This document shows positions 16,411-31,399 of a stretch of 64,000 bases of DNA, in pieces (within the stretch, counting starts at the first letter, position 1; the number at the start of each line of letters is the position of its first letter). This stretch comes from Roseinatronobacter alkalisoli (GTDB taxonomy: Bacteria; Pseudomonadota; Alphaproteobacteria; Rhodobacterales; Rhodobacteraceae). The position numbers and the translations under genes are program-made. The notes under the pieces are model-generated. The model ran no database searches. It saw only the letters and a list, made by a program, of their open reading frames with translations, and was not told the origin of the DNA. Location: the NCBI RefSeq assembly GCF_028745735.1, contig NZ_JAQZSM010000002.1, positions 1 to 64,000 of the forward strand, read 5' to 3'.

Positions 16411-16696
16411 ATGGCCTTAGTGGAATGGGGGAATGCTTCTTGCCCTTGCGATTGTATGGGGCGGCTCGTTCTTCTTCAACGAGATCGCCGTCCGGGAAGT
16501 GCCGGTGTTTTCCGTCGTTGTGGCCCGTGTGGCACTCGCCGCAATCTCCCATGGTTTTGCGGGAATTTACGGGCGCAGGTTTCGTAAGATGGGGATTAGT
16601 CCGATGTGTACGGCGACGGGTCAGGTCGTCGCATCAAGCGTAATTCTCCTGCCGGTCATGGTGTCTGTTGCGCAGATTGGCGCCGCCAAAGCGTGA
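16411..16696 (+). pseudogene. decayed EamA/DMT transporter gene
   Basis: An N-terminal piece (MALVEWG, then, one frame shifted, MLLALAIVWGGSFFFNEIAV) is joined to an internal piece (MCTATGQVVASSVILLPVMV). Intact EamA proteins have about 200 residues between and after these pieces. A frameshift at the GGGGGAATG run near 16426-16434 and a large internal deletion are visible. Its end overlaps the 3' end of the convergent P450 gene. Confidence 0.75.
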
Positions 16697-18053
16697 CTGG
16701 CAAGCCATTTGTCGGGATCGGGGTGGGAATGTGACGCCACTTTGGCCGATCGGGAACATCCATCCCGACCCTGTAACGCTGCAGAAACTGGACAATAAAT
16801 GCTTTCACCTGGATCGTGGAAAAATGGAGCCCGATACATTTATGCGCCCCACCCCCGAACGGCGACCAAGCAAATTTATGCACGCGATCCTCGGCGCGGT
16901 CGGGCGTGTATCTGTCGGGGTCGAAACGATCAGGATGGGGAAAAATCTCGGGGGTCATCATCACCGGACCGGGGCAGATCACAACCTTTGTGCCACGCGG
17001 TAAATGGTGGCCTTGCCATTGGGTGTCAGCCATGACAGCGCGGGCCGTAAAGGCAGAAGGCGTAAACCGGCGCAATGCCTCGCGGTAGACGCGGTCGGTG
17101 AGGTCCAACTTGTCCAGATCACCATAGGACACGGGACCAACAGGCAGCTGTGCAATCTCGGCGTAAACGCTCTCTTGCAGGTGTTCATCCTGTGCTAGTG
17201 CCCAGATCATGGCGGTCAATGCACCCGTGACGGCGTCATGTGCCGCCATCAGAAGGAAATTGAAATGATCAATGATGTCATTGTCGGACCATGCCTGCCC
17301 GTCTTCATTCTGCGCGATGCAAAGCTGAGAAAAGAAATCATCGCCACCCGTGGCTTTGCGCTTGGCAATCAATCGTCTGAAATCATTTGATAACGTTTCA
17401 CGGGCGGCAACACCGCGCCCCATTTTGGTGAAGGGCAATGGTTTGCGTATCAATGCGCTGGTTGCCGCAACTTCCTGGACAAATGCCGCGTTTATGCGCG
17501 TGACCTCGGCCGGATCTTCGACGCCCATAAAGACTTTTGCACCAAGGCGCAGGGTCAGTTCCTTGATCGCGGGCGCGAATTTCATCTTTGCACCCGTCGG
17601 CCAATCATCAAGCAACCGTGTGATTTCACCATTCATCAGGTGCAGATAGTTTTTCAATGCAGGTGCTCGGAACGCGGCTTGCATGACGCGCCGGTGGGCG
17701 CGGTGGTCAAGATCGTCACGGTGCAAAAGCCCACCTGAAAATAAAGGGGCAAAGGCCTTTAGCCCGTTCTGTGCAGAAAAGATTTGTTCGCGGTTCAGGT
17801 ACACATGTTCAAGCGCGTCGGGCCCGGCCAGAACGGCCCATATTTCGCCGAAAACATTCATGCGGAACACGTCACCAAAGCGGGCGACCTGTTCAAAGTA
17901 GGTGCCATATGGGTCCAGAGCAAAACCGATACTTTTCCCGATGAACGGTATCGTGCGCGGCCCCGGGATATGTCCCAATTGCGGGCGCGCAAGCCGGGCG
18001 CTGAACGCTGAATTGGTTTCCAAAATTGACAAACCGGTACTTTCATCCTGCAT
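16656..18053 (-). CDS. cytochrome P450
   Basis: A 465-residue P450 of the soluble bacterial type. The heme-binding signature is FGGGAHKCIG near residue 413, the K-helix ExxR is EALR, and the proline-rich start is GHIPGPRTIPFIG. The I-helix reads MAAHDAVTGAL: the usual acid is kept, but the oxygen-activating threonine (usual AAHDTTT) is replaced. Start at the ATG at 18051-18053; an upstream in-frame start would be TTG. It ends an eight-gene operon, about 150 bp after the AMP ligase. It resembles CYP120/CYP26-like retinoid/terpenoid P450s; substrate unknown. Confidence 0.92.
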   Translation of the reverse strand: MQDESTGLSILETNSAFSARLARPQLGHIPGPRTIPFIGKSIGFALDPYGTYFEQVARFGDVFRMNVFGEIWAVLAGPDALEHVYLNREQIFSAQNGLKAFAPLFSGGLLHRDDLDHRAHRRVMQAAFRAPALKNYLHLMNGEITRLLDDWPTGAKMKFAPAIKELTLRLGAKVFMGVEDPAEVTRINAAFVQEVAATSALIRKPLPFTKMGRGVAARETLSNDFRRLIAKRKATGGDDFFSQLCIAQNEDGQAWSDNDIIDHFNFLLMAAHDAVTGALTAMIWALAQDEHLQESVYAEIAQLPVGPVSYGDLDKLDLTDRVYREALRRFTPSAFTARAVMADTQWQGHHLPRGTKVVICPGPVMMTPEIFPHPDRFDPDRYTPDRAEDRVHKFAWSPFGGGAHKCIGLHFSTIQVKAFIVQFLQRYRVGMDVPDRPKWRHIPTPIPTNGLPVTLWRRQSAQQTP

Positions 18054-18205
18054 GTTCAAGATGTGCGTAAGTTGAATGCCGCTCAAGGTCAACGAGTTAC
18101 TGCATGTCTACGGTTGTGCAATCTGCTCGTCATTTTCGGACATGCGACTCCTCGCACAAAGGCGCAGATTCCGATGTCAGGAGGGTCATGCGCAAGCAGA
18201 GTCGA

Positions 18206-19627
18206 TTACAGCGATGCCCGCAGGGATTCACGGTCAATCTTTGAGCGGTGACGCTTATCCATTGGCATTGTCGCAACATGAACAACCCGGTTGATGCCGA
18301 ATGCGGCTGCGTGGGTTCGCCATGATGCCGCCTGCGCCTTGTCACCCTCAATTGCTAGGCAGGCTACGTCATTGACCGCGATCAGGGCGCATTGGCGCAC
18401 GCCGGGCCATTGTCGTGCCGCCACCTCGACCGAAAACGGGTAGCACATGCGACCGTCTATTTTTACATCCGTGCCCATACGCCCCAGCAACCAAAGTCTG
18501 CCTTGCGCATCCAGACGGCCTGCATCGCCCGTGCGGTGCCAGATAGTCGCGCCGTCACGAACCTTGTTTTGCGCGTCATGGGCTGGATCAAGATAGCCGC
18601 GGTTCACATGCGCACCGGCAACCTGAATTTCGTTGTTTTGAATGCGCAGACGAATCCCGGCAACAGGGTGACCGACCAGAAGCCCTTGCCCCCCATACAT
18701 GGCTGTGCGGTCATCGGCTGTTATGTCAGCGGCTTCCAGATGCGCAATTGGCTCTGCCTCGGTAGAGCCATAGACACAGCACACGCGCAGGTTAGGCCGG
18801 ATCGAATGCATCCTGTCGATAAGTTCCGGAAACACAGGGCCACCGCCGGTAAAGACCGTATGAAGCGGCGCCTCTGCCCCTGCCTGCGCCAGCATCTCGC
18901 ACAGCGATGGCGGCAGGAGTGCGCGGGTGACACCGTTCTTTTGCATCCAGTACTGTAAATCCGCGGGTTGCAGCGCGTCAAGCCGGGACATCTTCCAGTT
19001 AGGCAAAACCGAAGTCTGCCCGCTGGCAATGTTTATCAGCACGAAAACAGGAAACGCGATCAGGTCGCGCTGGGGCTGCTCGTCATGCAGCAACGGCGCA
19101 ATTGCTTTATACTGCGCGCCAAGGAAATCATGGCTGCGCGGAATTGCCTTTGGCATGCCCGTCGTGCCCGACGTGAAAGAAATAAGCGCTGTATCCACAC
19201 CCGCAGGGTGCGCAATATCGGGGATAGTCGCGGCCCGTCCAGTGGGGCGCAGATGGCGCACACGCCACAATTCAGGCAAGACCCATCCAAGCAGCCCAAA
19301 CAGGCCAGAGCTGCAAAATGCGCGCGGTCTTGTGACGCGGGCTGCGTGGCGCAACCCTGCAAGGCCTAATGCCGGTTCCGGCAACACGGCAGTTGCGCCA
19401 AGCGTCCATAGCGCAGCAAGGGCGGCATAAAGGTCTGCATCCACAGACATTGCGATCAACACCTTATCGCCCGCCCGGATGCCTTTGTGGTGCCACGCAT
19501 TCGCAAAGGCCAAACGGCGCGCGTTCAGTTCGATGTATGTTACCTCGCGGCCACTGCCGTCGATCAGCGCAACCCTGTCCGGATACCGTTCAACGGCGGA
19601 CGCAAAATCGCGTAGCAGATCAGACAT
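18206..19627 (-). CDS. AMP-dependent acyl ligase (OleC-like)
   Basis: A 473-residue adenylate-forming enzyme. The phosphate loop is SFTSGTTGMPKAI, motif A5 is YGSTEAEP, motif A7 is HRTGDAGRLDAQGRLWLLGR and the C-terminal lysine lies in MDKRHRSKID. The last two motifs resemble the OleC beta-lactone synthetase branch more than ordinary acyl-CoA ligases; this is a motif judgement, not an alignment. It activates a carboxylate with ATP. It overlaps the preceding GNAT gene by 8 bp and belongs to the eight-gene lipid/isoprenoid operon. It is shorter than typical OleC (about 550). Confidence 0.88.
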   Translation of the reverse strand: MSDLLRDFASAVERYPDRVALIDGSGREVTYIELNARRLAFANAWHHKGIRAGDKVLIAMSVDADLYAALAALWTLGATAVLPEPALGLAGLRHAARVTRPRAFCSSGLFGLLGWVLPELWRVRHLRPTGRAATIPDIAHPAGVDTALISFTSGTTGMPKAIPRSHDFLGAQYKAIAPLLHDEQPQRDLIAFPVFVLINIASGQTSVLPNWKMSRLDALQPADLQYWMQKNGVTRALLPPSLCEMLAQAGAEAPLHTVFTGGGPVFPELIDRMHSIRPNLRVCCVYGSTEAEPIAHLEAADITADDRTAMYGGQGLLVGHPVAGIRLRIQNNEIQVAGAHVNRGYLDPAHDAQNKVRDGATIWHRTGDAGRLDAQGRLWLLGRMGTDVKIDGRMCYPFSVEVAARQWPGVRQCALIAVNDVACLAIEGDKAQAASWRTHAAAFGINRVVHVATMPMDKRHRSKIDRESLRASL

Positions 19628-20465
19628 CCCATTTCAGCCCAAGCAGTTCATATCGGCGAAACACCTCTCCACCTTCCTTGCGGCTGCGATCGGCAGAGCG
19701 GTTGTTGTCTTGTATCAGCGCGTGGATCACTGTCTCATAGCCCATTGCACGCGCTTTCGCGTGACAGGCATGCACCATATGCCGACCCGCGCCGGGCACG
19801 AAGCTGGCATAAGTTTTCAGGATCACGGTTTTCGTTTCAAGCCCCTCGGCATAGTTCGGAATCGCAAACAGAAAGCCTGCCAATGTCCCGTCTGGCCGAC
19901 GCGCAAAGAAGATCAGCTCGCGCTTGAGCAAGGGTATGACGGGTCTATACATCCCAAGGAATACAGACTCGGGGATCGGTGTGTAGAATGCGTTATCCGC
20001 AAATGCTACGCAAGACAGTGCGAACACCTCTTGAAACAAGACCTCTGGTTCGTTGCCGTCCCATGTCTCTACAGTGAAATCGGCGGGGGCGGGCAATGGC
20101 GCGGGATCGCATTTTTCCAAGGCCATCCGCGCCGAGAAGTAGCGTGCCACAGGCTCAAATCCGGCAGCAGCAAAAATCAACGGTTCATGAGCGCGATTGG
20201 CCGGTTCCATCAGAAAGGCAGGCGAGCCGTCACTTTCGCTCACGAAACGATAGCTGTGCCATGTGTCGCCCGCCATTGGCCCCAACACCCTGTCAAACCC
20301 TGCATCACGGATGCGCACCAGTGCCTTTTGCAATAACTCCCTGCCTGCCTTAGGCACCTTGAACGACACATTTCCAATTGTCGCGGCAGGCGCACCGTCC
20401 CAGTCCGGCCCGTTCAGATGGATCGTCAGGGCAGCGCCATCGACCTTCAGTGTTTCGACTTTCAC
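19620..20465 (-). CDS. GNAT-family protein of the isoprenoid/lipid operon
   Basis: A 281-residue GNAT-like protein. Relevant segments are GPMAGDTWHSYRFV, FFARRPDGTLAGFLFAIP, TVILKTYASFVPGAG and VIHALIQDNNRSAD, a pattern I associate with large uncharacterised GNATs. Start is GTG, with GTGA overlapping the stop of the polyprenol-kinase-like gene. It may acylate or aminoacylate the pathway intermediate. No substrate can be named. Its place between kinase-like and ligase genes suggests it acts in the same pathway. Confidence 0.82.
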   Translation of the reverse strand: MKVETLKVDGAALTIHLNGPDWDGAPAATIGNVSFKVPKAGRELLQKALVRIRDAGFDRVLGPMAGDTWHSYRFVSESDGSPAFLMEPANRAHEPLIFAAAGFEPVARYFSARMALEKCDPAPLPAPADFTVETWDGNEPEVLFQEVFALSCVAFADNAFYTPIPESVFLGMYRPVIPLLKRELIFFARRPDGTLAGFLFAIPNYAEGLETKTVILKTYASFVPGAGRHMVHACHAKARAMGYETVIHALIQDNNRSADRSRKEGGEVFRRYELLGLKWDV

Positions 20466-21781
20466 AGGCTTGCTCCGGGTATTGGGGTTGTGCCGCCCTG
20501 ATCTATTACTGCAACCGTGTAATAGGCCAACGGCAGGATCATGGATAACAAGGTCAGTTTCAGAACGCGATGCCTGAAAAAGATGCTGGGCATTGCCGCA
20601 CTGGCCGTCGCGCTAAGGGCGAGACACAGGCAGGCCAATACCAACAGTGGCTCCGCCCACAAACTTTGCGGGGGGTTCAGCAACGTTACGACATATCGCA
20701 AACCAAGCAGCGCCACCGCGATCACCGGCACCCAGACCAGATTGCGCCGCAATGCAAGCGTACTTAACCCCATGACCAGCCCCATCGCTGTCAGGCCATA
20801 GAATTGAATCGCGTTCCACCCCACTGCATTTCCAACGGCCAACCAGCCAAAACTGAACAACGCCAGCGCTGCAACCATGTCCAGATCGCCAAAATCATCC
20901 TCACCGGGATTTTGGGTGCTTGCCCACGGATGCGCCACAAGCACCAGCGCTGGCAGGATCGCATTTTGCCATTCAACCGAAGCGAGGATCAGGAACATCG
21001 CCACGACATAAACGCGCGCCGCATGGGTCGACAGACCAAAGCGTGGACCGATCACGCGCGAAGCAATGATTGCAAGCACGAAAAGCGCTGCAAGCGGTCC
21101 CAACTCGGTCAGGCTGCTGTCGCTGTGGACCTCCAGAAACACCAGCAATCCCAGCGGCAGAAACAGGTTGTCAAACCCCCGCCAGCTTTGGGCCTCAACC
21201 AATGTGCCGAAACCGGCCACCAGCAACGCAAGTGTCAGGATATTCAGGGGGCGCAAGTCGGACAGGAACATCAGGCAGATCAACGCCACCAGAAGTGTGA
21301 TCACGAAAAAAACCACAGTTCCTTCAACACTTTTGTCGCCCTGTTCAACCTTGAAACGGCGCGTTCCATATGCTGTTCCGGCCAGCGCCGCGGCCGCATC
21401 AGCGAGTGTCAATACTGCGATAGGCAACACATAGAAAAGCGCCACCCCATCTGCCAGGAAGAAACAAAGCCCAACTGAAATGGCCAACAGGAAATCACCG
21501 TAGGACCGCCGCTCGACACTGTGCACGGCTTCGCCCAGCCGCCCCGAAATCTGCGGCATTCGCAGCATTACCATCATAACCAGCGTCAGGCCGATAATCA
21601 TGTATACTGGCCAGCGATCTGGAAAAAGCCACGGCAACCCCATCGCATAAACCCCGGTGCCGACATGCACCAGTTTACGCTTCACTTCGGCGCTAAACGG
21701 CAAGCGGCGCACAAGCGCCATCAACACGACAAACGCAGCAACCGAACTAAAAGCAATGACCAGTTGCGCTGAGATCGTCAC
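20462..21781 (-). CDS. phytol/dolichol kinase-like membrane protein (VTE5/SEC59 family)
   Basis: A 439-residue polytopic protein. The N-terminal half carries the family motifs KRKLVHVGTGVYAMGLP, SYGDFLLAISVG and LADAAAALAGTAYG, with KSVEGTVVFF. These are typical of CTP-dependent polyprenol/phytol kinases and related phosphatidate cytidylyltransferase-fold proteins. The C-terminal half (about residues 230-439) adds further helices of unknown role. Start is GTG, overlapping the DUF3419 stop by four bases. It probably phosphorylates an isoprenoid alcohol at the inner membrane, which fits the neighbouring UbiA prenyltransferase. Confidence 0.82.
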   Translation of the reverse strand: MTISAQLVIAFSSVAAFVVLMALVRRLPFSAEVKRKLVHVGTGVYAMGLPWLFPDRWPVYMIIGLTLVMMVMLRMPQISGRLGEAVHSVERRSYGDFLLAISVGLCFFLADGVALFYVLPIAVLTLADAAAALAGTAYGTRRFKVEQGDKSVEGTVVFFVITLLVALICLMFLSDLRPLNILTLALLVAGFGTLVEAQSWRGFDNLFLPLGLLVFLEVHSDSSLTELGPLAALFVLAIIASRVIGPRFGLSTHAARVYVVAMFLILASVEWQNAILPALVLVAHPWASTQNPGEDDFGDLDMVAALALFSFGWLAVGNAVGWNAIQFYGLTAMGLVMGLSTLALRRNLVWVPVIAVALLGLRYVVTLLNPPQSLWAEPLLVLACLCLALSATASAAMPSIFFRHRVLKLTLLSMILPLAYYTVAVIDQGGTTPIPGASL

Positions 21782-22878
21782 CTGCCAGCTTCCTCGATCA
21801 CAAAATCCGAATAGAAGAACGCCTTGTCACGAGCCTTGAGTTCATCCTCCAGGTCACGCAGGCGTGTCACGCGCGCGGACAAGTGCGGCGGCACACGGCG
21901 CGGGGCCATCATGTTCCAGTATACCAGCCGCGCACCGGGGGCAGCAGCACCCAGAATGCTGTCATAAACCTGCGCGAAAACCGGCCCCGACATATATTCG
22001 AAGATGTCCGATAGGTTGAAACCATGTGCCAACTCGCCGGTTTTGATAAATGCCTCCAGTGAACCGGGCCGGATTTCGATGCGGTTGCAACGATCACGGA
22101 TCAGTTCAAAATACTCCTCGCGCCACGCCATCGGCAGGGCCATGCCATGCGTTCCCTTGATGATCCAGTGTAGATACGGGTTCCCGGAGGGGTCGGTTTC
22201 TACCGCTGCGTGGTGGATGCGCCGCGCCACATGCTGCGCGGGACTGCCCTCGACATGATCAAAAAACGCCTTGTCCCGACCCATCCGGCCCATGACGAAA
22301 CGAGAGAAAAAGATACTCAGCAACAATCGCCAGCGCCATGTGTTGAAGCGCGTGTCAAAGAAGGCCTGACGCCCCGGCCTGTCGCGTGGCACGAATATGT
22401 CGTCGCGGGTTGTGCGGCCATGCACCAACGGCAGAAACCACGTTCGGAAAATCCGGAAATAGCGTTCAAACTTGCCGACGCCACCTGCGCCGAAACGGTC
22501 AACATCCTTGTCCAGCGCATTCCAGAACGCTCGTGTTTCCTGATCAAGCAACGCCACCACACGCGCCAGCAGCGCCTTGCGCCGTGTTGATGCGCGCGCG
22601 CCCATCAATTCCAGAAATTCGGCATGGCTCAATGTTGAATACGCAGCGATACGCAACTTCAGGCAAGCAATCTGTGCAGGTGACAGATCGACCACAACAA
22701 TCTTTGCCGGGTCCAGCGTCAGCATTGCCAGCGCGTTATCGCCTGCCGAGCAGATCGATACCAGCGTTCCCGAGGCACAATTTCCCAAGGCCTCGGTCAG
22801 AATATCCGCATCTTCCCACAATTGGGCATATCGGATGTGATCAAATGCTGCTTTTCCCTCAATCTCAGAGTGTGTCAC
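21778..22878 (-). CDS. DUF3419/BtaA-like aminocarboxypropyltransferase family protein
   Basis: A 366-residue protein of the DUF3419 family, which includes Rhodobacter BtaA (SAM:diacylglycerol 3-amino-3-carboxypropyltransferase for betaine lipids). Family segments are FDHIRYAQLWEDADIL, LVSICSAGDNALAMLTLDP (SAM site), VVVDLSPAQIACLKLRIAA and HGFNLSDIFEYMS. The GTG start at 22878 has GGAG seven bases upstream; the upstream ATG at 22908 has no RBS. It overlaps the PEP-synthase-like gene by 14 bp. It may add an aminocarboxypropyl group to the operon's alcohol product rather than to diacylglycerol. Confidence 0.85.
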   Translation of the reverse strand: MTHSEIEGKAAFDHIRYAQLWEDADILTEALGNCASGTLVSICSAGDNALAMLTLDPAKIVVVDLSPAQIACLKLRIAAYSTLSHAEFLELMGARASTRRKALLARVVALLDQETRAFWNALDKDVDRFGAGGVGKFERYFRIFRTWFLPLVHGRTTRDDIFVPRDRPGRQAFFDTRFNTWRWRLLLSIFFSRFVMGRMGRDKAFFDHVEGSPAQHVARRIHHAAVETDPSGNPYLHWIIKGTHGMALPMAWREEYFELIRDRCNRIEIRPGSLEAFIKTGELAHGFNLSDIFEYMSGPVFAQVYDSILGAAAPGARLVYWNMMAPRRVPPHLSARVTRLRDLEDELKARDKAFFYSDFVIEEAGR

Positions 22879-25285
22879 AAAGTTTCTCCACCTCGCCCGT
22901 CGCGCCATCAACGGTCAGCGTTTCACCATCTGCGATCCATTGCGTCGCGCCTTTCAACCCGACCACACAAGGGATACCCAGTTCACGCGCCACGATGGCC
23001 GAATGCGACAATAACGAGCCGCGCTCGACGACGATGGCAGACGCGTTTGAGAAAACGGCAATCCAGCCCGGATCAGTGTGGCGCGCCACAAGAATTTCAC
23101 CCGCTGCCAGCGATTGCGTGCGTGGGTCGCGAATCACGCGGGCCACCGCTGTCACCCGTCCCGCTGAACAGCCGGTTGCACTTCGGCGCGCAGCCTTGTC
23201 TTGCGCAACGGGCGCTTCAGCCCAGACGGGCGCGATGGCGGGGCCGCGCAATTCAATCCGTTCGGGTGGGTCAGGACGGTTTGCGGCGGCCGCATCTTCG
23301 GCCTTGCGCAGGGCGACCAACGATTTCAGATCGCCCGACAGCCCATACCCTTCGACCGCGCCCAGAACCTCTGACGTGGTCAGGTAGAACACGTCACGCG
23401 GGGCTGCCAGCAACCCACGGGCCGCAAATTCACGGCCAAGACCAAGAAAGACGCGGCGCGCATAGCCAAAGATGCGGGTTCGCTCAAAGCGCAGATTCTC
23501 ACGGTCGCGCACGCGATTCTTGGTCCATGAAATCATGGATCTGGCAACGAACCGTTTAAACGGGTTGGAAAAAAGCGCCCGCCAGTCGGGGTTCCGGACT
23601 TTGTGGGTTTCATTTGCGCCACGTTGCGCACTGGCCAAAATGGCCGCCAGCAAGCTGGATGGATCGTCCCGCAGGGTCAGGCTTTCCAGTTTCAGCTCTT
23701 CGGTGCAGCGATCACCAAACTTTTCAAGATACGCCTCCACCTCGCGGCGCAGGTCAGGATGGGCGTCCAGCCCGGAAATTCCGTCCGCAATCAGCGAGGT
23801 GTCCAGTCCGGTGGCCTTGACCATCCGTCCCATTTTCATGATGCGCTGCGCTGGTTCCGCCGAAATAATATCGCCTTGCCCGATCATCACATCGTTGTGC
23901 AATGCCAAGCCATCCTGACCAAGCCATTTTTTCAACAGGTTCCGCGAGGCTCCGAAAGCAATCATGCACAGAAAATCATTGACCAAGGGCGCATCCCAGC
24001 GATCAAGCAAAGTGCTTTCGATCTTGCGGTATTCAGCCGCAAGGGCGGTCGGACCCGCGCGCGTCACATCAAAGCCACTGTCAAGCGCGGTATTCAGGCG
24101 CGCATAAAATCGACTCCGCGTGCGCGGCAGCATGAATGCCTGCCACACCAAGCCCCCCGCGGCCCGCACAATCCTTAGATACTCGACAATGCGCCCCGTC
24201 CCGGTGGCTGGCGCCGGGCCGATGCTGTCGGTCACCTCCGAAGGCATCGGCGTATCCACCCCCATCATCGTTTCCATATAGGCCCTGTTAAGCGAAAAAC
24301 CGGGCAGAAGTGCCAGCGCGCGATACCAGTTAACCAGATTGTAATAGACCCGACCGTCCACGCGGCCCAGCATGTTACCAAAAACGGCGGATTGGGCGGC
24401 AATTGTGCGGTCGGGCACACCCAGCAAGGCAACAAAGGCGCGGTAAACACGCGCGTAAACATGTACAGCAAAGGAATATGTCAGCGGGCTGACCATGCCA
24501 GGATAGCTTTCAACAATGTTGGAGTTGTCGAATATAGTCAGCGCGTTGTCCGGGCTAGGGGGCGGCAGCAGGGGTGTCGTGATCGGGCGCGATTGCAAGA
24601 TGTGAAGGCCATTACCGTCAATCGCCCATTCGATATCCTGCGGGGTACCAAAAACATCTTCGGCCCGCCGCGCCAATTTGGCAATCTGCCCGGCCTCTGC
24701 TGTGCTCAGAACGGCAGGCGTTGTGGCGCAAAGCGCTGTGCCCTCTATGGTCCAGTCCTCGCCATCCACTTCGCCAGATACAAGGCGCTCGCCCAGCCCG
24801 GATATGGCGGACACAATCACGCGGTCACGCCGACCCGTCACCGGATCAGCGGAAAAGGCGACCCCGGCCGCGCGAGCATTGATCATGCGCTGAACAATCA
24901 CGGCCGGTCCCTCTGCCCTAGCTTTTGTTTTCAGGGCGCGGTAGGTGGCTACAGTGTCGGAAAAGCCCGATTCCCAGACTTGCCGCGCTGCGGCCGCAAC
25001 ACTGTCAGCCGCCACGTTCAGCAACGTGTCAAACTGCCCGGCGTGACTATGTTCCGCGCCATCTTCCTGCCGGGCGGAGCTGCGTACTGCAAACGGCCCT
25101 TCACCCAGTTGCGCCAACGCATCTGACAATCCGTCAATAGGCCCGTCTGCGTCAAATGCTTCGGCGCGAATGACGAAATAGGCAGGTGGCGCAAATCCGG
25201 TTTCTGCAAGGCGCGAGAGCGCAGCGGCCTTGCCGCCGACCTCATCGACGTTGCGCGCCTGTTGCTGCGGGACAATAAAAGACAT
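22865..25285 (-). CDS. PEP/pyruvate-dikinase-like enzyme (rifampin-phosphotransferase architecture)
   Basis: An 806-residue protein with an N-terminal PPDK ATP-binding domain (VGGKAAALSRLAETGF; FAVRSSARQEDG; residues about 1-300, including IEWAIDGNGLHILQSRPI), a 350-residue middle region, and a C-terminal phosphohistidine domain with RGSLLSHSAIVARELGIPCVVG. That order matches rifampin phosphotransferase and related small-molecule dikinases more than PEP synthase, because there is no PEP-binding TIM barrel. It probably phosphorylates a small hydroxyl substrate through a phosphohistidine relay. Its ATG overlaps the UbiA stop (TGATG). Confidence 0.85.
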   Translation of the reverse strand: MSFIVPQQQARNVDEVGGKAAALSRLAETGFAPPAYFVIRAEAFDADGPIDGLSDALAQLGEGPFAVRSSARQEDGAEHSHAGQFDTLLNVAADSVAAAARQVWESGFSDTVATYRALKTKARAEGPAVIVQRMINARAAGVAFSADPVTGRRDRVIVSAISGLGERLVSGEVDGEDWTIEGTALCATTPAVLSTAEAGQIAKLARRAEDVFGTPQDIEWAIDGNGLHILQSRPITTPLLPPPSPDNALTIFDNSNIVESYPGMVSPLTYSFAVHVYARVYRAFVALLGVPDRTIAAQSAVFGNMLGRVDGRVYYNLVNWYRALALLPGFSLNRAYMETMMGVDTPMPSEVTDSIGPAPATGTGRIVEYLRIVRAAGGLVWQAFMLPRTRSRFYARLNTALDSGFDVTRAGPTALAAEYRKIESTLLDRWDAPLVNDFLCMIAFGASRNLLKKWLGQDGLALHNDVMIGQGDIISAEPAQRIMKMGRMVKATGLDTSLIADGISGLDAHPDLRREVEAYLEKFGDRCTEELKLESLTLRDDPSSLLAAILASAQRGANETHKVRNPDWRALFSNPFKRFVARSMISWTKNRVRDRENLRFERTRIFGYARRVFLGLGREFAARGLLAAPRDVFYLTTSEVLGAVEGYGLSGDLKSLVALRKAEDAAAANRPDPPERIELRGPAIAPVWAEAPVAQDKAARRSATGCSAGRVTAVARVIRDPRTQSLAAGEILVARHTDPGWIAVFSNASAIVVERGSLLSHSAIVARELGIPCVVGLKGATQWIADGETLTVDGATGEVEKLCDTL

Positions 25286-26190
25286 CAGAACATCCTCGTG
25301 AGCATGGGAGCAAAGCCAGCCAAACCATAACAGGCGAACACCCAAAGCCCCGCAAAACTGTCCAGGCGCTTCTCTGCATCTGGCGTGGGGGCTTTACAAT
25401 ATGCACGCCCCGCCCAAATGCATGCGCCCGCCCCGGCACTGCCAAGCGTCGCTGTCATCCAAAGCGCACCGGTCACCGCGCTGACGCCCACGAGCAATGC
25501 CCATGACACCACAACACATATGGCCCAGATCATAGCCGCGCTTTGTGGACCCCAGAGGCCGGAATAGGTGTCGACACCGACAATTTCATTCTGCGGTGCC
25601 CAAAGCTTGCGCCCGATTTCCAGAACGCAGCCATTGACAAAGGACATCGCCAGAAACAGCCAAAGCCAGATAGCCGGCGCGCCAGCGGGCAGCCATTCCA
25701 TGGCGGTCAGCAGCAGATCAATCAGTGGCATGATCGCCATATGACTCAGCAGATACAGCACAGGGCGCGCCTTCAGCCATTTTGGCAAGCCGAACTCTGC
25801 TGTCATGGCCAGTAGCCACAGCCAGACAAGCCCAAGCAACCACAGAAGCGGCGGATGCCAAGCCCATGCGGCAAATCCCGTCATCGGTAAGGACGCCAGC
25901 CCAAGCATCAGAACAGCCCGCAGCGAGATCAGGCCACGCGGGATCGGGCGGTCAGGTCGGTAGCGTTTATCATCTTCCAGATCCTTATATTCGTCACAGA
26001 CCCGCATCTGGAAGAACAGTAGGATTGCCACTGCGAACCCTGCAATAAATGCCCCTTGGCCCGGTAGGGGCCGCCCCGCCATCTCGGCGGAAACGCTGAT
26101 ACTGGCTGCAGAAAAAACCGCCAGCAAAGGTACTGTCTTTGCCAGCGGGAAGCGTTCTTTCTGATATGCCCACAGGGCCGCAGGTGTCAT
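25285..26190 (-). CDS. UbiA-family prenyltransferase
   Basis: A 301-residue membrane protein with about nine helices. The first aspartate-rich motif is RVCDEYKDLEDD (variant of NDxxDxxxD), followed by YRPDRPIPRGLISL. The second motif region is VNGCVLEIGRKLWAPQNEIVGVDTYS. UbiA enzymes transfer a prenyl group from its diphosphate to an acceptor in the membrane. The DEYKD subtype is shared by several uncharacterised bacterial UbiA members. Start ATG overlaps the HMGR stop by four bases and its stop overlaps the PEP-like ATG, so the three are coupled. Confidence 0.9.
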   Translation of the reverse strand: MTPAALWAYQKERFPLAKTVPLLAVFSAASISVSAEMAGRPLPGQGAFIAGFAVAILLFFQMRVCDEYKDLEDDKRYRPDRPIPRGLISLRAVLMLGLASLPMTGFAAWAWHPPLLWLLGLVWLWLLAMTAEFGLPKWLKARPVLYLLSHMAIMPLIDLLLTAMEWLPAGAPAIWLWLFLAMSFVNGCVLEIGRKLWAPQNEIVGVDTYSGLWGPQSAAMIWAICVVVSWALLVGVSAVTGALWMTATLGSAGAGACIWAGRAYCKAPTPDAEKRLDSFAGLWVFACYGLAGFAPMLTRMF

Positions 26191-27452
26191 CTGTGGCGCG
26201 CCAGATTTTCATGAGCACGCGTGAAATGCCCGGCCGCAATTGCCGCCACAATAGAGATTTCGCCGCACAGGCAGGTTGCGGCCACCACTTCGGCCAAGGC
26301 CGCGCCGTTGCCTGCACCCTTCAGGCCAAGGATGTTCAAACCCGCCGACTGGCTGGGCAGCGATGTGCCCCCGCCGACCGACCCGACCAGTATGTTGGGC
26401 ATGGTCACGCTACAAAACAGATCGTCGCCGCGTGCCTCCATCCGGGTGATGCCCATGGCACTTTCGGCAACGCAGGCGGCATCCTGACCCGTTGCGATAT
26501 AGATAGCAGCTAACCCGTTCGCATAATGCGCCTGCGCCCCCAACTGTCCTGACAGATGCGCGCCAAGATTGGCCACCTGACCATAATCAAGCATGTCCTG
26601 AACTGTTGTCCCCAACGTCTTTTCCACAACGCCCGCCTTCAGCGTGACCGACGCACTGACCTTGCGTCCGCGTCCGGTGACCAGCCCCAGAAAAGACGCC
26701 TTCTTGTCACCGGAAAAATTACCTTCGATATACCATGCCTTCAGGGCGACGGGGCAGCGCGCCACAATATCATCGCATAAGGCATTTGTGGCGATTGTCA
26801 CCATGTTCTGGCCTGCTGCATCGCCGGTTGTGTAGCGGCAGATCAGGAACACTACGTTATTGTCTATCATCGGCTCCACTGACACCAATTTGCCGTGCCG
26901 TGTGGTTAATTCTGCCGCCACCTTCAACTGGTCGATCTGGTTCACAACCCATTCCACGAACAGCCCCGCATTCAGCAGGTTTTCCAGAACAAAGGCCGGT
27001 GTCCGGATCACGCCTTCATACAGGATCGCAGTGCTGATACCCCCTGATTTCGTGGCGGCATAGGCTCCGCGCGCGTAGGACGCAACCAGTGCCGCTTCAG
27101 TGGTGGCCATTGGCACGTGGAAATCACCATGGGCATTCAACCCATTTATCCGCAAAGGGCCGATAATCCCGACAGGCAATTTCACGGTGCCGATGAAGTT
27201 TTCTATATTGGCGTTGAATTTTTGGGGCGCTGCCATAGTCAGCGGATCTGCGATTGCATCGCGATCCGCCGGGCCGGTGGTGTTGCTCAGGTGGTTCCAG
27301 TATTTTTCGACAGATGCCTGCGTCGCCTTCCGAACGGGGCGCAGGGTGGTGAACTGTGCATCGCTCGGCAACATTCGTTCATGAAGCGGGGATTTGTAAA
27401 AACGGGACCTAATTCTATGCAGCATGTCTTTGACATGGGAAGGAATAGTCAT
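26187..27452 (-). CDS. divergent class I-type HMG-CoA reductase
   Basis: A 421-residue enzyme of the class I HMG-CoA reductase family, without the N-terminal membrane domain. Family segments are ENFIGTVKLPVGIIGPL, VPMATTEAALVAS (catalytic Glu), NFSGDKKASFLG (Lys), YIATGQDAAC (Asp), MPNILVGSVGGGTSLPSQ and GHFTRAHEN (His). All four catalytic residues are present, but substrate-pocket positions differ from the usual NAHAAN and GQDAAQ. It is the first gene of the eight-gene operon. No other mevalonate genes are nearby, and this lineage uses the MEP route, so an altered substrate is possible. Confidence 0.88.
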   Translation of the reverse strand: MTIPSHVKDMLHRIRSRFYKSPLHERMLPSDAQFTTLRPVRKATQASVEKYWNHLSNTTGPADRDAIADPLTMAAPQKFNANIENFIGTVKLPVGIIGPLRINGLNAHGDFHVPMATTEAALVASYARGAYAATKSGGISTAILYEGVIRTPAFVLENLLNAGLFVEWVVNQIDQLKVAAELTTRHGKLVSVEPMIDNNVVFLICRYTTGDAAGQNMVTIATNALCDDIVARCPVALKAWYIEGNFSGDKKASFLGLVTGRGRKVSASVTLKAGVVEKTLGTTVQDMLDYGQVANLGAHLSGQLGAQAHYANGLAAIYIATGQDAACVAESAMGITRMEARGDDLFCSVTMPNILVGSVGGGTSLPSQSAGLNILGLKGAGNGAALAEVVAATCLCGEISIVAAIAAGHFTRAHENLARHR

Positions 27453-28082: not shown

Positions 28083-29711
28083 CTATTCGCTGATGGCCAT
28101 AGCATCTGCAAGATATTGGTCCATCATTGCCAAGAGCATTTTGAGTCTTGATTGCAGACAGTCGGAAGTGGACCAAGAGCGTCCGGCATAGCACTCGATA
28201 AGCCGACGATAGATTGCCAGGCGTTGCGGGGAAACGAATTGGGTTACCAATGTTCCGGCATTGCGCGCTGCGTACCAATCTGTGATCAGATCGATACCAG
28301 TGATTTCGTCCTGTTCACGTCGCGAAGGAATATAGGTTGCCGCCTGAAGTGGTCGTTGAATATCGGCGATCCTGATCAGTTCGTTGACGCCTACGGCCTG
28401 AATGAACTGCGCCAGATCAGCGGGCCATTCTTTCGGAAGGTGGCGCTGTACCACTAACTGGCGAACATGCCGATAAAGAAAATCACCGTAGGACTGCGCT
28501 TGCATCCAATCGGACTGCGCAGCGTCGCGGTGGTAAAATGGGAAGAAGGCATCGAAGTCGTCAAACTCTATTTGCCTGTATTGGACATTTCGGGACTCTC
28601 CGTCGGCAGACACTACGGCAAAAGCGGGAGGGAATGCCACTGGCGACGGGATCGCGTGATTGGTCAGCGTATGGCCGTCGATACAGGTTGTGCAGGTGTC
28701 GCAGACATGCAGGTGACCTGAAAAGTGTACGCCGATACCGGTGGCTGCAACGGCCCGACCGGTTGCATGGTCCGGTGTGCGCCGCACGGCCTGAGTCGCG
28801 CCGAAGAGCATACTCTCCTGAGCGAAAGTTCCGTCATACGTATCCAGCACCGGGTAATGCGAGAAGCAGATCAGCGTCTTGCCCTGCGCCTTGGCGCGCG
28901 TGGATACATCAACGAGCCAATCAAGAATAAACGGCTTCAGGCGCACAAGTGAATTCCAGCCTGCGTCTGTGCTATCGGCGAAGGAGGACGGGTCGGTGTT
29001 GTCCGCACATCCGTTGCGTGGTTCAAACACATTGGCATCTATGGAGACAAGCCAAAGCCCTTTTTGCGGTTCGACAAGATAACTCAGATCCAGCTGCCGG
29101 TGGACAACCGAGCCGTCGGGGGAGGTGATCTCGAACATGCGGCTGGCAAATGCATCATCGGTCCCGAAAGGAGATTCCCAATGCAGGTCAGAGGATCGCC
29201 TCTGAATACCGTAGGGAGCCCAGAGCGGAGCGGTATCACGATAGGAGCGGCAGAACATCGCGCGATCAACGATGACCCGCTCTGTATTGGCTATCCCCTC
29301 TGGTTCGCTTGTAACCAAAGTTGTTCCGCCCCGACCGTCATAGAACGCCTTGGAATGATGCCGTCCGCTCATCCCGTAGGTGTCGTGATTGCCGGGCGTA
29401 AGAAAAAACCGGATTCCATGCTCAGCTTCATATCGGGCGAGCAATGCCAGCGCTGCATCCATCGTGGCGATCTGCCCGTCATCCGTCAGATCTCCTGCAA
29501 TAACCACGGTTTCAATTCCTTCTGCCACGCACGCGTCAAGCGCAGCAGGAAAAGAGAAATAGCTTTCATTATACACACGCGTCGATGCCGCGCTGTCATC
29601 TCGTGTGCGGATGCAGGCTCCCGATTGCCCCTTGAAATCAACGCCTTCAAACCGGTAACCAGGGAAGATCTCGTGATAGTGGGGGTCGGCAATAACCGCG
29701 AGTTTGTGCAT
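28083..29711 (-). CDS. metallophosphoesterase (calcineurin-like)
   Basis: A 542-residue cytoplasmic phosphoesterase with all five family motifs: ADPHYH (DxH), GDLTDDG (GDxxDxG), PGNHDTYG (GNHD), FSHYPVLD (H) and SGHLHVCD (GHxH). There is no signal peptide. The C-terminal 150 residues are an extra domain of unknown role. It starts 6 bp after the Na/Pi cotransporter and is the last gene of the operon with that transporter and a dual-specificity phosphatase. Probably a phosphodiesterase/phosphomonoesterase for an imported organophosphate. Confidence 0.92.
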   Translation of the reverse strand: MHKLAVIADPHYHEIFPGYRFEGVDFKGQSGACIRTRDDSAASTRVYNESYFSFPAALDACVAEGIETVVIAGDLTDDGQIATMDAALALLARYEAEHGIRFFLTPGNHDTYGMSGRHHSKAFYDGRGGTTLVTSEPEGIANTERVIVDRAMFCRSYRDTAPLWAPYGIQRRSSDLHWESPFGTDDAFASRMFEITSPDGSVVHRQLDLSYLVEPQKGLWLVSIDANVFEPRNGCADNTDPSSFADSTDAGWNSLVRLKPFILDWLVDVSTRAKAQGKTLICFSHYPVLDTYDGTFAQESMLFGATQAVRRTPDHATGRAVAATGIGVHFSGHLHVCDTCTTCIDGHTLTNHAIPSPVAFPPAFAVVSADGESRNVQYRQIEFDDFDAFFPFYHRDAAQSDWMQAQSYGDFLYRHVRQLVVQRHLPKEWPADLAQFIQAVGVNELIRIADIQRPLQAATYIPSRREQDEITGIDLITDWYAARNAGTLVTQFVSPQRLAIYRRLIECYAGRSWSTSDCLQSRLKMLLAMMDQYLADAMAISE

Positions 29712-29716
29712 GACAA

Positions 29717-31399
29717 TCAGCTTTCATGGTTTGAACGAAGACGTGTCTCGCGCAATGCTCCCAAGTCATCGAGAATAGGATAGGCAACCGATATCAGATG
29801 CGCATTGACCCTTTTGAGGTCCCGCAGAATATCGAGATGAAGACCTGATGTTTCCACAGTTTCGGTGCGCTGCTCCTTAAGCCGCTTCAGGTGCCGTTCA
29901 GCAGACTCGGTTTCAAGACGCCGGACATCACTTTTGTAGCTCACCAATTGCCGGGCCAGATTAAGGTCGCGCGACAGAAAGACAGATTGGGCAACCTGCA
30001 GAATCTCAAGAGTGCGATCGTAGAACTGAACAATCTCGGCCATACCTTCTGACGAAAAAGAAAGCTTACGCTTTGCTTTTTTTGCAGCGAGTTCGGACAG
30101 CCCGTTGTCGATGATGTCACCTATATGCTCAAGATTGACAGCATAGGACATGATCTCGGTGGCCCGGCGCGTATCCGCGTCGTCTAGCTCCTCTCGCCCG
30201 AGACGCGAGAGATAGAGTTTGATCTCCGAATGAACACGGTCGATGTCATCTTCTAAATCGGAAAGTTGTGTGCGGACTGCCGGGTCCGAACTTTTCAATG
30301 CAATCATGCTTGTTTCAAGCATGTCACGCACCATGTCGCCCAGCCGCAACGTTTCGCGCGCAGCCGCAGAGAGCGCGAGCACGGGTGTGCTTAAAGCACT
30401 CTCATCAAGATAGCGCGGCATTACCCTGGTTTCTGCCGGCTGGGGCATAAGCATCTCTGCAAGCCGGGCAAGTGGACCCAGAAACGGCAGGAAGACCACC
30501 AGCAGCACGGTCGAAAACCCGATATGGGCGACAAGCGCAACTGTGCCGGTATCGGGCCAGAGCTGCGCCATCCGCGGCGCGATCAGACCCGATAGAACAG
30601 TCAAGGCAATCGCACCTGCGGCGCGGATAGCAAGATTGGTTACCGCCAGTCGGCGCGCCTGGACGCCTTCGCTATAAACCGCAAGATAGGGGGGGATGGC
30701 GCCGCCCAGATTGGCACCTGCCACCAACACCAGGGCCAGTTCTGCGGTAACAATATTTGCCTGGCCCAACAACACAACAAACAGCACCACCGCCAGACTG
30801 GAAGATGCAAGGAATGCCAGGCCTGTCGCAAACAGAAGCGCAAATGCTGGCGCATTGCCCAGATGAAAGAGAACAGAAATAACAGCTTCCGAGGTTCTGA
30901 CTGGTTCGGTGGCCTGCCCCATCAACGACAGCGCGAGCAGCATCAGGCCTAGCCCCAGAATGGCGCGCCCGATACCCTTGCCCATGGCATAGCTGCTGTT
31001 GCTGAATGTAATCACGCCACAGAGTATGAGAACAGGTGAAAGCCAGCTCAGTTCCAACGACAGAAAATATGCAGCGATGCTGGTCCCGAAATTGGCGCCA
31101 AGAATAATCGCCTGCGCCATCATGCCCGAAACAAGATCGCGGGCAGCAAATGACGCGGTGATCACAGCTGTGGCCGTACTCGATTGAACGGCAATGGTAG
31201 CGAGTACCCCCACACCAACAGCAGAAAACCGGTTTCCGGTACTCTTGCCAATCCAATGCCTGAGCGACGCGCCAAAGGCCCGCAGCATCCCGGTTTTGAT
31301 CATCCGCAAGCCCCAGAGCAGTAATGCACCGGCACCCAAAAGATTGATAAGTATCAGTGTGGAGCTAATTTTATCTACCTTCCAGCAGGTCGATTGCAT
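29717..31399 (-). CDS. Na/Pi cotransporter family protein with PhoU-like domain
   Basis: A 560-residue type II Na/Pi cotransporter. The N-terminal half has the repeat motifs AVQSSTATAVITASF and ILGANFGTSIAAYF, with the second repeat around GANLGGAIPPYLAV. The C-terminal 230 residues form a PhoU-like helical bundle (LRLGDMVRDMLETS, EHIGDIIDNGLSEL). The start is uncertain: the ATG at 31399 overlaps the phosphatase gene by 29 bp. Such proteins move phosphate with sodium; with phosphatases on either side, it may export or balance phosphate released from organophosphates. Confidence 0.9.
   Translation of the reverse strand: MQSTCWKVDKISSTLILINLLGAGALLLWGLRMIKTGMLRAFGASLRHWIGKSTGNRFSAVGVGVLATIAVQSSTATAVITASFAARDLVSGMMAQAIILGANFGTSIAAYFLSLELSWLSPVLILCGVITFSNSSYAMGKGIGRAILGLGLMLLALSLMGQATEPVRTSEAVISVLFHLGNAPAFALLFATGLAFLASSSLAVVLFVVLLGQANIVTAELALVLVAGANLGGAIPPYLAVYSEGVQARRLAVTNLAIRAAGAIALTVLSGLIAPRMAQLWPDTGTVALVAHIGFSTVLLVVFLPFLGPLARLAEMLMPQPAETRVMPRYLDESALSTPVLALSAAARETLRLGDMVRDMLETSMIALKSSDPAVRTQLSDLEDDIDRVHSEIKLYLSRLGREELDDADTRRATEIMSYAVNLEHIGDIIDNGLSELAAKKAKRKLSFSSEGMAEIVQFYDRTLEILQVAQSVFLSRDLNLARQLVSYKSDVRRLETESAERHLKRLKEQRTETVETSGLHLDILRDLKRVNAHLISVAYPILDDLGALRETRLRSNHES

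Follow-up and report, generated by a model that had tools for sequence, protein, structure and literature searches.

The window, by which we mean the whole 64 kb stretch of Roseinatronobacter alkalisoli DNA analysed here (out of a 4.84 Mb genome in 130 contigs), contains eight open reading frames, termed A to H, on the minus strand between positions 27452 and 16656. The first seven of them, A to G, span 18206-27452 with every pair of neighbours overlapping by 1-14 bases, and it is this coupled set, headed by an enzyme that resembles 3-hydroxy-3-methylglutaryl coenzyme A (HMG-CoA) reductase (HMGR), the target of statins, that is analysed in the following. The individual features are:

26187..27452, minus strand: A, class I HMGR-like enzyme of 421 amino acids with an altered HMG pocket (PF00368, 362 bits)
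25285..26190, minus strand: B, UbiA-like membrane protein of 301 amino acids (PF01040, 40.1 bits; cut-off 34.2)
22865..25285, minus strand: C, Rph-type dikinase, ATG at 25285 (PF01326 and PF00391; alignment to Listeria Rph, 5fbs)
21778..22878, minus strand: D, DUF3419 protein, divergent BtaA relative, GTG start at 22878 (PF11899, 183.5 bits)
20462..21781, minus strand: E, polytopic protein with CTP:prenol-kinase-like motifs in the N-terminal half and a C-terminal membrane half (assigned by motifs)
19620..20465, minus strand: F, predicted tandem GNAT-fold acyltransferase of 281 amino acids (AlphaFold2 model and Foldseek)
18206..19627, minus strand: G, AMP-forming acid ligase of 473 amino acids (PF00501, 131.5 bits)
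16656..18092, minus strand: H, cytochrome P450, accessory, alternative ATG at 18053 (PF00067, 189 bits)

Read directly, the A/B junction is a 4-base overlap (ATGA) and the B/C junction a 1-base overlap (TGATG); C and D overlap by 14 bases, with D starting from its GTG, the D/E and E/F pairs by 4 bases each (GTGA), and F/G by 8 bases (ATGTCTGA). This agrees with an earlier note on this DNA, which had seen seven genes overlapping or abutting by up to 14 bp. The same note had counted the P450 gene into an eight-gene operon; the coupling holds for A-G, but H stands apart, with a gap to G of about 113 to 152 bases that is set by the choice of its start codon, and it lies outside the conserved core. 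Pfam cut-offs are passed by A, B, C, D, G and H, and there is no passing Pfam match for E and F. As the GC content of A-G (58.3%) is close to that of the window (58.2%), composition argues against a recent foreign origin of the seven genes. Promoter-like sites (8, with a mean of 6.0 expected by chance) and terminator-like sites (16 versus 15.2) occur near chance level. Upstream of A and on the same strand, genes for a calcineurin-like phosphoesterase and for a Na/Pi symporter with PhoU domains are found at 28083-31399.

Conservation of the seven genes

A protein search with A gave any match in 32 of 295 sampled genomes of the window's family. Close homologues (E below 1e-160) are present in 16 of these genomes, the window's own included, and the short loci of the other 15 all have A, B and C in this order (15/15). 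The remaining 16 matching genomes (E 5.6e-73 or weaker) were left out as weaker, and three of them (G005, G264, G056) have no strong C homologue. A scan of species genomes yielded 23 loci, of which 22 are from Rhodobacteraceae in the wide sense, as judged by their titles, and one is from a member of the Cytophagales. Together with regions fetched from genomes and with one plasmid, 38 loci were examined for A-G, and in 32 of them, belonging to two phyla, all seven genes lie on one strand. The order is A-B-C-D-E-F-G in all 25 full Rhodobacteraceae loci (which are not 25 independent events, as L027 and L030 are from one species), and of the seven full Bacteroidota loci three have the same order and four the order F-G-A-B-C-D-E. 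F and G are thus neighbours in 25/25 and 7/7 full loci, with a small gene between them in two Bacteroidota loci that is Polyketide_cyc2-like, in one case below the Pfam cut-off. Among the six incomplete loci, five are cut by contig ends (L023, L024, L041, L044, L074), and the sixth, L073, is a genuine variant. The plasmid record of L113 begins within A, and L043 has G in two pieces and truncated at the contig end. The earlier note had proposed to check whether the genes co-occur in the same order in relatives, and a scattering was not seen. As all seven genes occur together on one strand in 32/38 loci, A-G almost certainly constitute one conserved pathway.

The Bacteroidota proteins are 42-52% (A), 35-37% (B), 35-43% (C) and 34-46% (D) identical to those of the window. 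A strong B homologue (E below 1e-74) is present in 8 of 296 genomes from the phylum to which the Cytophagales genome belongs, counting that genome itself, and the other 64 of the 72 matching genomes (E 7.5e-8 or weaker) were taken as having ordinary UbiA proteins and set aside. In the window's class, a search with B in 385 genomes gave one clear extra case, G476, and 8 of the 10 matching genomes (E 7.6e-6 or weaker) were likewise set aside; among 398 genomes from the window's phylum, only the window itself was found at E below 1e-6. The pairwise protein distances of the seven genes correlate with r 0.57-0.94 in 17 sequences, without correction for shared ancestry, which alone also gives such a correlation. 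L023 and L044 were left out of this comparison. Elsewhere, C of L038 as well as D of L037 and L038 were dropped, as their matches run through a stop codon that is assumed to lie upstream of the real start. The operon is plasmid-borne in Roseinatronobacter sp. S2. In L017 (genome G013), the HMGR-like gene at 1112-2373 is split into two overlapping pieces, which points to either a broken frame or a faulty assembly.

At least 3 kb upstream of A are available in 24 of 27 Rhodobacteraceae loci, and in 12 of these 24 a divergent pair of sulfotransferase and P450 genes adjoins A, which is not the case in the other 12; the sulfotransferase assignment (PF13469) was scanned in L027. The P450 H of the window differs from the P450s of these pairs (22-27% identity), and a close homologue of H (88%) is found at the same place in only one of the 27 loci (L025), which is why H was dropped as a core member. 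A further P450-family gene is found in L034, some 2 kb upstream of A. Judged by gene position, the product would be finished by optional steps of oxidation and, in many cases, of sulfation.

An HMGR-like enzyme with an altered HMG pocket

A scores 315 bits with the HMGR equivalog model TIGR00533, which is below the cut-off of 442, and keeps the catalytic Glu (in ATTE or ATSE) and the DKK and GQD motifs in 36/36 sequences. In the same 36 sequences, Glu replaces the Ser before the cis-loop, and there is no Lys at a second pocket position, and these two positions we take to be Ser684 and Lys735 in the numbering of human HMGR. Both residues are present in human, plant and methanogen HMGRs, and they are also kept in a Streptomyces HMGR that is encoded beside mvk and mvaD and in the G264 HMGR that groups with it. 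As the two residues that hold HMG are lost in 36/36 sequences, A probably reduces a thioester other than that of HMG. The earlier description of A as a divergent HMGR can be refined to an HMGR-like group with an altered HMG pocket. In a maximum-likelihood tree of 21 proteins, three mevalonate-type rows split from the rest with a support of 96/93, and the proteins of Vibrio and Photobacterium are placed within those of the operon, beside the Rhodobacteraceae ones, with moderate support (92/87).

HMG-CoA synthase (PF08540), for the absence of which the earlier note had suggested a check, was found in none of 25 different genomes, of which 24 carry A, and the further genes mvk, pmk and mvaD were not searched. 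The 25 genomes come from two sets (0/18 and 0/8) with G675 in both, and a control search was positive in 4 of 14 well-known genomes. DXR of the methylerythritol phosphate (MEP) pathway is present in 17 of 18 operon genomes, the missing one being the Cytophagales assembly, in line with the earlier statement that this lineage uses the MEP route for isoprenoids. A complete mevalonate pathway, which the earlier note had named as a counter-finding, was not seen within this scope. The mevalonate pathway is weakened as an explanation by the lack of a detectable HMG-CoA synthase, and it is quite likely that A does not serve it.

HMGR-like genes of this kind also occur elsewhere. Those of Vibrio fluvialis (L045, 13866-15128) and Photobacterium (L046, 14001-15239) encode proteins that share 51-54% identity with A in the aligned part. 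The Vibrio fluvialis gene has no neighbour from the set B-G, and searches of plasmid records with B, C and E, which did not extend to Vibrio chromosomes, yielded nothing from Vibrio. On an Alteromonas macleodii plasmid (L048, 7016-13044), an HMGR-like gene lies near genes for an AMP-ligase, an iron-containing redox enzyme, an SDR protein and a thermostable-hemolysin-family protein, which is possibly another pathway with a retargeted HMGR. On a Sinorhizobium plasmid (L051, 4917-13144), the HMGR-like gene lies between genes for acyl-CoA carboxylase-like subunits, and this region follows an indolepyruvate ferredoxin oxidoreductase-like gene.

The membrane, kinase-like and predicted acyl-transfer components

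UbiA enzymes normally use allylic diphosphates. Of the two Asp-rich motifs, B keeps the first one as DExKDxxxD in 12/12 sequences. At the place of the second motif, ExGRKxxxxxxE or a close form is found in 12/12 sequences, and the spaced-Asp pattern that we assume to be canonical was not seen. B is far below all NCBIfam cut-offs. Because the second motif is replaced, we take the donor site of B to be rebuilt, as far as this can be judged from motifs.

C had been described earlier as PEP-dikinase-like. It does belong to the dikinase family (PF01326 and PF00391), but its domain order, with the ATP-grasp domain followed by the acceptor domain and the C-terminal His swivel, is that of Rph, and the match to Listeria Rph takes in the ATP-grasp domain as well as the C-terminal half, which ends with the swivel domain. 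All cluster sequences (13/13), including those of the window and L073, have GGK, RSS, the Arg-Glu pair and the swivel His, and GGK presumably corresponds to Lys22 of Rph. In the alignment, Arg117, Arg666 and Glu667 of Listeria Rph face the RSS and RE motifs of C; the Rph residues named in PMC4844700 are Lys22, Arg117, Arg666, Glu667 and His825. C is under every NCBIfam cut-off. The closest C homologues on plasmids outside Roseinatronobacter are from Streptomyces (31%), where they are encoded beside AfsA-related hotdog proteins, and the Arg-Glu pair and swivel His of C recur in those on the plasmids of S. clavuligerus and S. durmitorensis. In these Streptomyces plasmid regions (L111, 13024-17421, and L112, 4669-10616), the C-like dikinase gene is accompanied by AfsA-related and isoprenylcysteine-methyltransferase-like genes, and on the S. 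durmitorensis plasmid a P450 gene also adjoins it.

In E, the motifs RKxxH, DAxAALxG, KSxEG and EAxSWRGxDN are invariant in 18 aligned sequences, and the Bacteroidota proteins also have RKxxH, DxxA, K(S/T)xxG and GxDN. An RKxxH clamp is described for the prenol kinase PfPolK in PMC10849223. For F, profile searches against solved structures gave no match, but the AlphaFold2 model (mean predicted local distance difference test, pLDDT, of 86) has MshD (mycothiol synthase) and other tandem GNATs as top Foldseek matches, with E about 1e-10 and TM-scores of about 0.5-0.65. By its predicted fold, F is thus a tandem GNAT, as the earlier GNAT assignment would have it. The label OleC-like for G proved too specific, as G reaches only 150 of 900 and 142 of 850 bits with the OleC models.

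The DUF3419 protein and the L073 variant

BtaA transfers the aminocarboxypropyl group of S-adenosylmethionine (SAM) to diacylglycerol, and D belongs to the same DUF3419 family. No DUF3419 protein other than D was found in 23 of 25 genomes. The exceptions, G063 and G116, each carry a second copy, and these two score 341-357 bits, versus 93-256 bits for the cluster copies, of which the lowest-scoring (93 bits) is a fragment truncated by the end of its contig. In G063, a methyltransferase gene follows the second copy, and the two look like a BtaA-BtaB pair. D is 27% identical to this canonical-type copy over 344 residues, and 37% identical to the second copy of G116 over a 113-residue piece only. 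Among the seven genes there is no BtaB-like methyltransferase, the rest of the genomes not having been searched for BtaB. The low scores of D and its 27% identity speak against a canonical betaine lipid as the product.

L073, which is the locus of genome G476 from another alphaproteobacterial family, carries homologues of C, D, B and F, followed by a phosphatidylserine-decarboxylase family gene (PF02666, 162 bits), with consecutive overlaps between the B, F and decarboxylase genes. Its F homologue reaches 83 bits with the F profile, and its B homologue was found with E 5.7e-22 in a search with a B-type profile. A decarboxylase beside D fits the expectation for a D product that carries an alpha-amino acid. 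That the product of the operon carries a group derived from aminocarboxypropyl is what we somewhat favour.

A proposed pathway and its alternatives

Our preferred reading, to which we assign a probability of about 0.5, is that A-G constitute one membrane-associated pathway for an amino-acid-headed lipid or terpenoid. In such a pathway, G would activate an acid to the acyl-CoA, and A, as a retargeted HMGR-like reductase, would convert a CoA thioester other than HMG-CoA to the alcohol, or stop at the aldehyde; A and G may draw on one acyl-CoA pool. The alcohol could then be phosphorylated by E, which would act as a CTP-dependent prenol-kinase-like enzyme, and by C as a His-swivel dikinase that turns ATP into AMP and Pi. 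B, as a UbiA-like enzyme with a rebuilt active site, would move the activated chain to an acceptor, D would put the 3-amino-3-carboxypropyl group of SAM on a hydroxyl, and F would N-acylate the resulting amine. The product may finally be decorated by the P450 H in the window, and by the pair of P450 and sulfotransferase in half of the relatives. As every one of the 32 full layouts keeps F next to G, apart from the small extra gene in two, with A-E as a second block, we read F-G as a module for acid activation and N-acylation, and attribute the building of chain and head to A-E. In the detailed order of the steps, including the division of phosphorylation between E and C and the question of what B joins, we have little confidence. 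The scheme of the earlier note, with an alcohol handled by kinase and UbiA protein, an aminocarboxypropyl transfer by the DUF3419 protein and an acylation by the GNAT, is compatible with the residues, and its steps are inferred in the same way. More tentatively, and with odds that we put clearly below even, the operon may make a new bacterial lipid class, common to Rhodobacteraceae and Bacteroidota, that combines an alcohol from a retargeted HMGR-like enzyme, its phosphorylation by unrelated CTP- and ATP-dependent kinases, a UbiA-like protein with a new site, an amino-acid head from SAM and N-acylation, with the lone Vibrio HMGR genes descended from this pathway.

Several observations weigh against this interpretation. 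Its support consists of genes, conservation and residues, from which substrates, step order and product are inferred, and no regulatory clue was found for the operon. The catalytic C-terminal His of A is present in 29 of the 35 sequences that include the C-terminus, the window's among them, but it is absent or shifted by one residue in six (L078, L106-L110), and a four-electron reduction by A is therefore uncertain. The pocket change is not special to the operon, as neither pocket residue is present in the HMGR-like proteins of Vibrio, Photobacterium, Alteromonas, Sinorhizobium and one Streptomyces plasmid. The best NCBIfam model of C is that of phosphoenolpyruvate (PEP) synthase (657 of 883 bits). 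E has no family match in profile searches with Pfam and solved structures, and its model (mean pLDDT 77) has no fold match in the PDB at E below 0.001. For B, the scheme assumes an allylic diphosphate as donor. Moreover, L073 demonstrates that C-D-B-F can occur without A, E and G: A is not detectable in its genome, and E and G are not beside the set, the whole genome not having been searched for these two. In addition, the UbiA-like protein of L073 is below the Pfam cut-off (27.2 of 34.2).

What alternatives exist for such a pathway? E and C could in principle make a prenyl phosphate or diphosphate from farnesol, geranylgeraniol or phytol, with B prenylating a small acceptor, A and G supplying or modifying this acceptor, and D, F and the P450 tailoring the product. 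Such a meroterpenoid or prenol salvage route would agree with the RKxxH clamp of E known from the PfPolK description, with the first Asp motif of B that is kept in 12/12 sequences, and with the nearby P450. The replaced second Asp motif, the lack of any aromatic-acceptor-making family among the seven genes and the lack of E beside the L073 set nevertheless make it rather unlikely, and phytol, which the earlier note had considered as the chain, does not qualify as a general source, because only in 6 of 25 genomes were reaction-centre proteins found, which would indicate bacteriochlorophyll and with it phytol. Less probable still, in our view, is a phosphorus-free or homoserine-type membrane lipid that replaces phospholipids under phosphate limitation as betaine lipids do. 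The membership of D in the BtaA family and the Na/Pi symporter and phosphoesterase genes beside the window operon could be taken as hints, but these two phosphate genes have no match in the relatives' loci searched, a BtaB-like methyltransferase is missing from the seven genes as described above, and C and E suggest a phosphorylated intermediate. A Pho-box regulation, which was also considered, is weakened by the fact that in 26/26 sequences no Pho-box-like site upstream of A scores above the best of 60 shuffles (four equal the best).

Leucine breakdown can yield HMG-CoA without HMG-CoA synthase, and A might on this basis be an ordinary HMG-CoA reductase that provides mevalonate or mevalonolactone for the product. 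The class I family membership and the conserved Glu, DKK and GQD motifs would agree with this, but the changed pocket residues, the score under the equivalog cut-off and the separation from the mevalonate-type rows on the tree render it improbable. Even more doubtful is a small phosphorylated signal or enol-phosphate product, for which a butenolide-like head would be phosphorylated by C and its tail supplied by the remaining genes. This idea can draw on the Streptomyces plasmid homologues of C, which share its Arg-Glu pair and swivel His and are encoded next to AfsA-related genes; however, no AfsA-like gene is among the seven (a search of the flanks for one was not made), and the DUF3419, UbiA and GNAT proteins would have no role in such a scheme.

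A pathway that is kept across two phyla and has no product in the literature searched offers a direct route to a new natural lipid. The data also suggest that some bacterial genes annotated as HMG-CoA reductase, among them the lone Vibrio genes, have been assigned the wrong function. Three testable enzyme subfamilies with remodelled or divergent active sites are provided as well, which are the HMGR-like, UbiA-like and DUF3419 proteins.

Relation to known systems

In the open-access literature, no account of the seven-gene set was found among the best-ranked papers for broad topics, and DUF3419 appears there in four papers, which by titles and abstracts concern algal metabolism, betaine lipids, an anther smut and a picoalga. 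A is of the same family as class I HMGRs, and the lone Vibrio and Photobacterium proteins fall among the operon proteins, but A lacks the two contacts to the HMG carboxylate and is part of an operon of seven genes in genomes where no HMG-CoA synthase was detected. B can be compared to the UbiA superfamily with its DGGGP synthase, EboC and chlorophyll synthase, as it passes the Pfam cut-off and keeps the first Asp motif, and it differs from these enzymes in the replaced second motif and in scores far under the NCBIfam cut-offs. C shares the domain order with Rph and with the prodigiosin ligases PigC and RedH, and it keeps the Arg-Glu pair of Rph, but it remains well below the curated cut-offs of these types (251 of 999 for rifampin phosphotransferase, 261 of 1300 and 291 of 1350). 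With the CTP-dependent prenol kinases VTE5, FOLK and PfPolK, E has in common the RKxxH clamp with the spacing of PfPolK; the likeness is one of motif, without a family-level or fold match, and an additional membrane half at the C-terminus is present in E of Rhodobacteraceae and of five of the seven Bacteroidota loci. The BtaA/BtaB betaine-lipid pathway of Rhodobacter and Agrobacterium is related through the DUF3419 family of D, but D is divergent, its operon has no methyltransferase among the seven genes, and six other enzymes are encoded with it. Every enzyme is from a known superfamily, and the whole is a biosynthetic operon that is tied through D to SAM-dependent homoserine lipids and whose product class may be new.

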